NCBI GenBank assembly: GCA_009995045.1
Contig: JAACQG010000007.1
Location: 85,849-149,848, forward strand
DNA: 64,000 bases
Origin: Alphaproteobacteria bacterium
Lineage (GTDB): Bacteria; Pseudomonadota; Alphaproteobacteria; Micavibrionales; Micavibrionaceae
Reading direction: 5' to 3'
Part shown: positions 41,876 through 43,832 of the stretch, in pieces
Layout: every line of letters begins with the position of its first letter
How positions within the stretch are numbered: the first letter of the stretch is position 1
Position numbers and translations under genes: made by a program
Notes under the pieces: generated by a model
The model's input: the letters and a program-made list of their open reading frames with translations, nothing else
Database searches by the model: none
What the model was told of the DNA's origin: nothing

Positions 41876-43165
41876 ATGAGCGATAAAAAGAAAATCTATA
41901 AACCGAAACCGATTAGCGGATACCCCGAATGGCTGCCACAGGTGCGCCGCGTTGAGCAGCAATGGCTGGATCATATCCGTGAGGTGTTTGAAAGTTATGG
42001 GTTTTGCAACATTGAAACGCCCGCCGTTGAGGCATTGGAGGTCATCGCCGCCAAGGGTGAGGATGTTGATAAAGAGATTTACGTGCTTGAGCGGCTCCAA
42101 AAAGAAGAAGGCGACAAAGAGGCGCGGTTAGCGTTGCATTTCGACCAGACTGTGCCGCTCGCGCGATATGTGGGACAGCATTTCAATGATTTGGTGTTTC
42201 CGTTCAAACGCTATCAAACGCAAAAAGTCTGGCGCGGCGAGAGACCACAGGCGGGGCGTTTTCGTGAATTTACGCAATGTGATATTGATGTGATTAATGT
42301 CGATAATCTGCCGCTGTCGTTAGATGCAGAAATGCCGAAGATTATTCATGAGGTTTTGAGCGGGTTGGATATTCCACCGTTTGAGATACGGATTTCTAAT
42401 CGGAAGATTTTATTAGGCTTGTTAGATTATTTAGAAGTTCGAAACAAAACCGAAGTTACAAGAATAATTGATAAAATTGAAAAACTAAGTGAAGATAGCA
42501 TTGAGCAATTATTAAAAGAGCATGGCATTGACGAGGCAGATTCTTCAGAAATATTATGGCTCGCTTTATGCCCTGATTTAGACGCTGTTTTTCCTCATAA
42601 TGAAATGATGCAAGAGGGCCTTGAAGAATTACAATTCGTCATGGATCAACTCTCTCACCTTCCTAATGTGGTTGCGGATTTGTCTATCGTTCGTGGCCTG
42701 GATTACTATACGGGGACGGTTTATGAGACGATGTTTGTTGATGATCCGTCTTATGGGTCGATTTGTTCGGGCGGGCGCTATGATGATCTTGCGTCTTCTT
42801 ATATCAATAAAAAGCTGCCCGGCGTTGGAATCTCCATCGGGTTTTCGCGCTTGTTTGCGAAGATGCATACACAGCTTGATACAGGGCGCATCTCGCCCGC
42901 TGATGTGCTTGTGATTTTGAATTCGGAAGATGATCGCGCCGCGGCGAGTGAGATTGCCGATACGCTGCGCAAGAATGGCAATGCCGTGGAGCTTTACCAC
43001 GCGCCGCAGAAATTTTCGAAACAGTTGTCCTATGCGGAAAAGAAAGGCATTCCCTTTGTCTGGATGCCGCCTTTTGGTGATACGGTAGAGCATAAAGTTA
43101 AAACCATGGCGACAGGCGATCAGGTCGAAGCCGATTACAAAGACTGGAAAGCCGCTGATGCTTAG
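41876..43165 (+). CDS. hisS: Histidine--tRNA ligase
   Basis: 429 residues, class II synthetase. Motifs: FETPAVEALEVIA, FDQTVPLARYV, VWRGERPQAGRFREFTQCDIDV (motif 2), the histidine-binding RGLDYYTGTVYETMF, and GISIGFSRLF (motif 3 Arg region). The stretch about 42380-42640 is visibly more AT-rich and uses AGA, ATA and TTA codons that the rest of the gene avoids. Its 3' end overlaps the next gene by 8 bp. Confidence 0.96.
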   Translation: MSDKKKIYKPKPISGYPEWLPQVRRVEQQWLDHIREVFESYGFCNIETPAVEALEVIAAKGEDVDKEIYVLERLQKEEGDKEARLALHFDQTVPLARYVGQHFNDLVFPFKRYQTQKVWRGERPQAGRFREFTQCDIDVINVDNLPLSLDAEMPKIIHEVLSGLDIPPFEIRISNRKILLGLLDYLEVRNKTEVTRIIDKIEKLSEDSIEQLLKEHGIDEADSSEILWLALCPDLDAVFPHNEMMQEGLEELQFVMDQLSHLPNVVADLSIVRGLDYYTGTVYETMFVDDPSYGSICSGGRYDDLASSYINKKLPGVGISIGFSRLFAKMHTQLDTGRISPADVLVILNSEDDRAAASEIADTLRKNGNAVELYHAPQKFSKQLSYAEKKGIPFVWMPPFGDTVEHKVKTMATGDQVEADYKDWKAADA

Positions 43166-43832
43166 AAAATCCAACAATACGTCTTTGCGAGCAAAGCGAA
43201 GTAATCTCTTCTTTTTAGGTATGTTGATTGCCGCGTCGCTCTCGCTCCTCGCAATGACAGCGTCGGCACAACAGGAGCAAAGCCTCGCGCTCTCCCCGAC
43301 ATATTCGCCTGATTTTTGTGAATTTAGCGTCACATTCCCGAGCGAGCCATATAAATCGCGCAAATGCGAATCAAAGGATCGGTGTTTTGACCAGATCAGC
43401 TATACGCAAGTCTTTGACATGGCATCGACGGTGAATTTTCGTGTGATTTGCAATCCTGTCGGGCAAGAGGTTTTGGATGCTTATTCCCCCGAGGTGATGA
43501 AAGCCACGCTCAAAGCCATGACCAAACAGAGTGTTGTGCAGGAATTTAACACCTCATACCGTGACGAGAAAACATATAAGCAAGCGGGCTTGGTTGGCGA
43601 AGGCCTCTCTGGTCGCACCCCGACGATTTATATCGCGCAATTATGGATTGGTAAGACTTCCGCGTTTTCCGTTGAGGCGGAGTTGATCGGTGAACCGATG
43701 GCCGACGCGGATGAATTATTTCGCGATGTCTTGGCGAGCGTTGGGCCGAAAGCGGTTGAAGGCGATGCGGCTGAGGACGGCGATGAAGCGGATGCGGCGA
43801 AAGAGCCTACCCCTGCGCCGACAGCGCCTTAA
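43158..43832 (+). CDS. Secreted protein whose signal peptide is encoded by a palindromic repeat
   Basis: 224 residues. Start ATGCTTAG overlaps the hisS stop. The N-terminus MLRKSNNTSLRAKRSNLF, then LGMLIAASLSLLAMTASA|Q is a good signal peptide. SLRAKRSN and IAASLSLLAMT are exactly the translations of the two arms of the dispersed element at 43181-43259. The mature part is unrecognised (FCEFSVTFPSEPYKSRKC, with several Cys) and ends in a Glu/Ala/Pro-rich tail. Convergent with sufE, overlapping 26 bp. Confidence 0.8.
   Translation: MLRKSNNTSLRAKRSNLFFLGMLIAASLSLLAMTASAQQEQSLALSPTYSPDFCEFSVTFPSEPYKSRKCESKDRCFDQISYTQVFDMASTVNFRVICNPVGQEVLDAYSPEVMKATLKAMTKQSVVQEFNTSYRDEKTYKQAGLVGEGLSGRTPTIYIAQLWIGKTSAFSVEAELIGEPMADADELFRDVLASVGPKAVEGDAAEDGDEADAAKEPTPAPTAP
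43181..43259. repeat. Dispersed palindromic element, copy 2, inside a coding region
   Basis: The left arm starts GTCTTTGCGAGC and ends AAGTAATC (43206). The right arm (43226-43259) starts GATTGCCGCGTCGC and ends CTCGCAATGAC. Arm ends match those of the copy at 18047-18134 and the single arm at 53634-53660. The reading frame passes through both arms without a stop and supplies the basic and hydrophobic parts of a signal peptide. Confidence 0.82.

Follow-up and report, generated by a model that had tools for sequence, protein, structure and literature searches.

Dispersed palindromic repeats recurrently form parts of the predicted signal peptide of a hisS-linked, putatively secreted protein in Micavibrionaceae

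A signal peptide made from a repeat has a precedent in Yersinia, where an RU-2/YAPL element lies within YPO1552 (Delihas 2007) and where, according to the available part of that source (PMC2759123), similar proteins of other genera carry unrelated signal sequences. Here we analyzed a palindromic repeat located in frame within the predicted signal peptide of a putative secreted protein, whose gene adjoins the histidyl-tRNA synthetase gene hisS in a member of the alphaproteobacterial family Micavibrionaceae. The locus lies in a stretch of 64,000 nucleotides, hereafter the window (contig JAACQG010000007.1, positions 85,849 to 149,848).

As far as the available text of PMC2759123 extends, the Yersinia work comprises a single principal case and two further predictions, YE2643 and YPO2495, whereas here one orthologous gene has acquired several kinds of repeats many times and, unlike in that text, some well-known envelope proteins have acquired repeats as well. 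Palindromic elements inside genes are well known in Rickettsia (Ogata 2000, via PMC2229807 and PMC10969869). The accessible portions of these two articles describe palindromic repeats of about 100-150 bp lying in frame in alphaproteobacterial coding genes, a position that the present element shares; the Rickettsia elements sit in unrelated metabolic genes, whereas the in-gene cases reported here are leaders of envelope proteins. MITE, REP and ERIC elements, as portrayed in the accessible text of PMC10969869, are likewise short inverted-repeat elements, mostly intergenic and of several sequence kinds, for which in-frame fusions are known; recurrent use at one orthologous leader sets the present case apart. 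Literature titles and abstract beginnings, in a search that most subscription journals lay outside, gave no sign of recurrent repeat-made leaders in one orthologous gene. What appears new here is that several repeat families were recurrently made into the leader of one such gene, a repeat-made signal peptide as such being already known from the part of the Yersinia report cited above.

In the window, the gene encoding the 224-residue protein begins with an ATG (43158-43160) that overlaps the hisS stop (TAG, 43163-43165), as the initial annotation of this DNA had stated, and the gene adjoins hisS in most orthologues. Its first 37 residues (MLRKSNNTSLRAKRSNLFFLGMLIAASLSLLAMTASA) resemble a Sec signal peptide and display all the marks of a signal peptidase I (SPase I) substrate, namely a basic n-region, a hydrophobic core and a small-residue cleavage motif, with a charge of +5 ahead of the most hydrophobic 10 residues (17-26, LFFLGMLIAA, mean hydropathy 2.66). 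The cleavage site ASA/Q was placed by eye and is likely after residue 37, in agreement with the initial annotation apart from its position, since the signal then ends at 43268, just beyond the 43262 given there. Positions 43181-43258 form a copy, complete with both arms, of a palindromic repeat termed kind A. Its left arm (GTCTTTGCGAG...GTAATC) encodes S9-N16, its right arm (GATTGCCGCGTCG...CTCGCAATGAC) encodes I24-T34, and the outer 11-nucleotide arms (at 43181 and 43248), which recur in other copies, are 91% complementary. The open reading frame (ORF) from 43158 to 43832 is thus open through the element with both arms coding, as had been proposed. The assignment of the basic n-region to the left arm and of the hydrophobic core to the right arm stood only in part: R3 and K4 lie outside the element, and the best hydrophobic window is mostly loop, the core being made of the loop plus the right arm.

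The left-arm pattern occurs at 6 places in the same genome (G000, 1.9 Mb) and the arm GTCATTGCGAG at 8 places, the reversed controls giving 0 in both cases. Both arms were judged present in 4 of the 6 copies, one of these with a mismatch. As read on a map of ORFs of at least 120 residues, the 5 copies other than that in the leader are intergenic; at copy L006, two long frames enter the element, one of them an upstream extension of a gene. Within the window, arm matches allowing one mismatch number 6, of which 4 lie elsewhere, compared to 1.5 expected by chance, and an Rfam search of the window gave no match. The dispersed palindromic element in this leader is confirmed as genuine, and its dispersal had been correctly anticipated.

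To place this leader among its orthologues, the mature part of the protein was matched in 91 of 105 genomes of the family; G145 and G157, which held only fragments, were left out, 89 loci were read, and G048 was dropped for want of a match in a follow-up search, leaving 88 orthologues. Of 144 relatives, 79 had a match to the whole 224-residue protein, including 2 from outside the family. By eye, 24 of the 88 leaders contain a palindromic repeat, or 25 with the doubtful G088. Twelve are of kind A (G000, G001, G017, G041, G064, G068, G070, G076, G079, G082, G144, G147), eight of kind B (G027, G035, G052, G057, G061, G074, G080, G081), two of kind C (G022, G050), one of kind D (G008) and one of kind E (G042); G068 and G074 retain the right arm only. 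A fixed detector relying on the A, B and C motifs or an inverted-repeat score of at least 14, designed after the leaders had been inspected, likewise flags 24 of 88, the difference being that G088 is included and G074 is not. Nearly all of the other 63 leaders are short and ordinary; no clear signal could be discerned in G032 and G043 when read from the chosen start, and five of the 63 have no hisS within reach. The leader of G022 (L016 / L191) is 69 residues long, and a second palindrome (NHRGHR type) is seemingly nested within its kind-C element.

Leader repeats of kinds A to C also occur elsewhere in these genomes. Of the 105 family genomes, 68 have an exact kind-A arm, for which the reversed control gave 0-3 matches per genome, and 60 have the kind-B pattern, with a control of 0; kind C gave 12 and 7 matches in the two genomes with C leaders (control 0); at least three of the leader repeat kinds (A, B and C) are dispersed. 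The highest number of exact kind-B matches among the 105 genomes, 219, was observed in the 2.3-Mb genome G025. Once the leader's own two arms were subtracted, A leaders were found in 12 of the 61 genomes that had another exact A arm and in 0 of the 27 that had none (Fisher 0.015), and B leaders in 8 of 54 with another B arm and 0 of 34 without (Fisher 0.021), these values being uncorrected for the kinship of the genomes. A cut of 3 other arms gave 12/50 versus 0/38 for A and 8/39 versus 0/49 for B (about 0.001 each), and a cut of 10 gave 10/37 versus 2/51 and 6/23 versus 2/65, some leaders then falling below the cut. With a cut of 6 arms, which was chosen after the counts were known and includes the leader's own arms, the figures were 12/46 versus 0/42 for A and 8/31 versus 0/57 for B. 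The leader repeats of kinds A, B and C derive from the dispersed repeats of the same genomes. A leaders in genomes lacking exact A arms elsewhere, named by the initial annotation as the finding that would speak against its reading, were not encountered.

Comparison of close relatives reveals both the empty and the filled state of the junction. In one same-genus pair with nearly identical flanks, G028 carries an ordinary leader (MKRLKFALLSLGILPALHSAAIA) and G057 a kind-B leader (MKRLNQQNTSSRRKPGSSWACLKKIPAFAGMTMLLGLATAPAIA). Within genus g10, the site is empty in G016, filled by kind A in G079 and G070 and by kind B in G052, the LPSLA c-region being common to G016, G079 and G070. By eye, the aligned filled and empty sites look like insertion with local replacement, and no clear target-site duplication was seen in these alignments; the supposition that an insertion had replaced or extended an older leader is borne out by the N-termini of the orthologues, which show an ordinary leader changed in this way. 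A maximum-likelihood tree built from 178 columns of the mature part, with 45 of its 85 inner branches starred and G088 scored as none, requires at least 15 changes for the presence of any repeat, 9 for kind A, 6 for kind B and 19 for all states together; it cannot separate gains from losses, and several of its terminal branches are long. Repeats have recurred and turned over at this site, and the initial reading needs amending in that the case is no single event: the same gene acquired several repeat kinds repeatedly, a few other exported proteins did so too, and Yersinia offers a precedent (PMC2759123, available part).

If elements were spread evenly over genes, with 0.95 genes per kb assumed across the 88 genomes, 0.37 kind-A elements would be expected at the hisS junction (0.68 counting each arm) and 12 were seen; for kind B, 0.23 (0.40 counting each arm) would be expected and 8 were seen. 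These are rough estimates, in which exact patterns undercount copies, the genomes are kin and the Poisson figures are uncorrected for kinship. As a control, the same detector was applied to LptA-like genes in the 90 of 102 genomes with an LptA match, over a scanned stretch that differs in length from that of the hisS-linked gene. It flagged 5 of the 90, four within the leader (three in one genus, probably one event, plus G025) and one (G080) upstream of an ordinary leader. Among 83 paired genomes, a repeat was flagged at the hisS-linked gene alone in 20 and at LptA alone in 2 (exact p 1.2e-4, uncorrected for kinship), and one of these 2 is G074, whose hisS-linked leader has a repeat by eye. 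Because the observed numbers greatly exceed those expected, together with the 9 (A) and 6 (B) changes on the tree, the hisS junction looks like a hot spot.

What the element contributes to the signal peptide differs between kinds. The distance from the element end to the cleavage site is only 3 to 5 residues in the window gene, G001 and G017, so that no native core is left and the core comes from element plus loop. Of the leaders that adjoin hisS, 6 of 11 of kind A have a best hydrophobic window that ends before the element end, and 5 of 8 of kind B, as well as those of kinds D and E, have one that starts at or after it, indicating that the element mainly extends the n-region in the latter. 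The initial proposal that both arms form the signal therefore fits part of kind A best. Dispersed kind-A copies have an open frame with a basic and then a hydrophobic half in 22 of 34 cases (65%) by our own criterion, compared to 12-15% of shuffles. The idea that any palindrome would code for a basic and a hydrophobic half was rejected, as shuffled palindromes do so in only 10-15%.

Repeat-made leaders are also found in other envelope genes, and confinement of the phenomenon to the hisS-linked gene was rejected. For each of kinds A and B, a leader profile was run against 18 genomes, and leaders were judged on the peptide among the matches listed. For kind A, 26 listed matches chosen mainly for long frames included ten that read as leaders of exported proteins (L205, L214, L215, L216, L217, L222, L223, L224, L225, L228) and perhaps L226; for kind B, the 20 listed included seven (L276, L279, L289, L300, L301, L302, L303), the rest not reading as such leaders. 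Pfam, run on some of them, identified SBP_bac_5 (L215, L223 and L228 of kind A, L302 of kind B), LptD_N/LptA (L205), Peptidase_M23 (L216), SBP_bac_3 (L276) and LysM (L279), as well as the core flagellar export protein FliP, which by peptide has a kind-A-like leader in G062 (L225) and a kind-B-like leader in G035 (L303). Copies adjoining cytoplasmic-looking genes, which we take to be ArgH-, CobT-, HrcA-, LeuB- and RbfA-like, lie ahead of the likely start.

Across the class, 4 of 289 genomes, two of which belong to the family, gave a match to the kind-A profile at E 1e-5, a strict threshold given that the true A leader of G068 scored 0.007 at best in the 18-genome search, if matched; at this threshold, the notion that the phenomenon is common across the class is unsupported. 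In G252, from another family, the leader of an SBP_bac_5 protein is a two-armed kind-A element (L375, 1501-1602, minus strand), and of the two class-profile matches in G384, neither resembles the leader of an exported protein. Repeat-made SBP_bac_5 leaders were also noted in G082, G147 and G035. In G025, four paralogue-like SBP_bac_3-like genes (L276, L289, L300, L301; Pfam on L276 only) each carry a kind-B-like leader, two of these with an apparent kind-E remnant upstream, and the genes were possibly duplicated along with the leader. The LysM protein of G036 (L279) has a lipobox-like leader (..AFAGMTMILFLLSGC) with a kind-B-like element in it, and the repeat may here have given rise to a lipoprotein signal.

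From these comparisons, we consider it probable that the window leader is one case of a recurrent process in which dispersed palindromes become parts of a predicted export signal at the hisS junction. Small dispersed palindromes would insert, or be copied, within a stretch of a few dozen bases that runs from the start codon overlapping the hisS stop to the cleavage site. Those preserving the open frame would be translated; the left arm would lengthen the n-region, as a rule by basic residues, and the right arm would form or abut the hydrophobic core. Signal peptides would tolerate such repeats because Sec requires charge, hydrophobicity and a small-residue cleavage site, not a fixed sequence. 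We infer that translation of these leaders begins at the hisS-proximal start and that their export runs through Sec, with in-frame copies retained by selection for export. As the element and its loop give most of the n-region and core of the window gene, its present leader should fail without them.

Several observations weigh against this reading. A frame resembling a signal was found in 1 of 16 dispersed kind-B copies, compared to 9-10% of shuffles, so that pre-adaptation is limited to kind A. An unselected sample of 60 loci, comprising the first-listed copy in 30 genomes each for A and B, contained no clear repeat-made leader (L131 is possible), which indicates that leader formation is a rare fate of a copy. 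As regards the element itself, the window copy forms no strong hairpin (DNA fold z -0.41 versus shuffles). The positions of the starts support the reading, in that 23 of 23 repeat leaders (three with GTG, one with TTG) and 55 of 59 others, among them G088, have an in-frame start no more than 20 nucleotides from the hisS stop, but this result is favoured by our definition of the start as the in-frame start nearest to that stop. A start at Met22 of the window gene would leave a hydrophobic leader of 16 residues without charge. Finally, the leader shared by G064 and G082 has evolved almost neutrally (dS/dN, synonymous and nonsynonymous divergence, 0.245/0.205).

The last of these points suits the account in which the repeat is a tolerated passenger, a neutral extension of the n-region at an insertion-tolerant junction, with a native core carrying out export. 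The kind-B, D and E leaders with their hydrophobic window at or after the element also favour this account, which we hold to be a serious possibility although the less probable one; it fits poorly with the window gene, G001 and G017, where no native core is retained, and with those kind-A leaders whose best window lies wholly before the element end. For two repeat-made leaders of other genes, the divergence was 0.121/0 (LptA, G061/G074; 4 synonymous and 0 nonsynonymous differences), which favours the recurrent process outlined above, and 0.278/0.124 (the M23 gene, G035/G074). Alternatively, the element might be 5' untranslated DNA, with translation from an internal codon past the left arm and the upstream frame open by chance. 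Translation from Met22 is possible in the window gene, copies with an open frame lie just upstream of cytoplasmic-looking genes (for example L307, L310 and L312), and in G017 the hisS stop and the chosen GTG, the start nearest to it, both lie within the left arm. This explanation is nevertheless unlikely, as orthologues with ordinary leaders also start clustered at the hisS stop, 10 of 23 repeat leaders have no internal ATG leaving 14-40 residues (G074 has no internal start of any kind that does so), and the frame is open through the element in 23 of 23 leaders compared to 31-62% for single frames of dispersed copies. In G017 (L019), the arm containing the hisS stop codon is apparently read in two frames, serving both the end of HisRS and the leader.

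A palindrome acting as RNA between hisS and the next gene, in processing or attenuation, with coding as a by-product, would accord with the location between coupled genes and with several kind-B copies at the junction that are long, near-perfect inverted repeats (score up to 28). We consider this more improbable still: the window copy folds no better than its shuffles, leaders of other envelope genes also have repeats, and in the few cytoplasmic-looking genes that were inspected, the copy precedes the likely start. Most of the genomes are in many contigs and repeats can produce mis-joins, yet an assembly artefact or chimera is scarcely credible, since G057 and G028 are single-contig genomes and the same insertion is found in the same frame in related genomes (G064/G082, G041/G144).

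The features of the window locus are compiled in Table 1. The 224-residue protein has no family in Pfam or NCBIfam, and its mature part none in PHROGs; a TraE match (E 0.043, under the cut-off) spans residues 5-65, leader included, and was rejected. An AlphaFold2 model of the mature part, built from a 4-row alignment, had a mean pLDDT of 51 and gave no usable structure. The mature protein (window 43272-43829) is a member of a conserved family in which 3 to 4 cysteines are invariant in the 4-row alignment.

Table 1. Features of the hisS junction, in window coordinates
Feature	Position	Strand	Basis and remarks
hisS-like histidyl-tRNA synthetase gene, 429 aa	41876..43165	+	Pfam tRNA-synt_His 2.1e-28; stop overlaps start of next gene
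Predicted secreted protein, 224 aa, family unassigned; mature part from Q38	43158..43832	+	ORF, orthologue comparison
Predicted Sec signal peptide, 37 aa, MLRK..ASA/Q	43158..43268	+	Sequence, hydrophobicity and charge; cleavage site by eye
Left arm of repeat kind A, codes SLRAKRSN	43181..43206	+	Sequence, genome copies
Loop, codes hydrophobic LFFLGML; alternative start Met22 (ATG 43221) inside	43207..43225	+	Sequence
Right arm of repeat kind A, codes IAASLSLLAMT, second part of hydrophobic core	43226..43258	+	Sequence, arm complementarity

Signal peptides are fast-evolving, and where they come from can seldom be seen. In the present case, the donor DNA can still be identified, one orthologous site was hit repeatedly by different donors, and empty sites persist in close relatives, a system which lets one measure the conversion of repeats to protein, the minimal sequence demand of Sec, and selection versus tolerance. 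For annotation, it also carries the warning that repeat-containing frames of this type need not be spurious. A broader proposition, to which we assign an even chance, is that dispersed palindromes constitute a mobile supply of export signals, with repeat families repeatedly replacing or extending the signal peptides of envelope proteins in this lineage; kind A, which often encodes a basic and a hydrophobic half beforehand, would aid such conversion. If this is true, signal peptides would regularly evolve through repeat-driven turnover of leaders, and the hisS junction would be the hot spot of this process.
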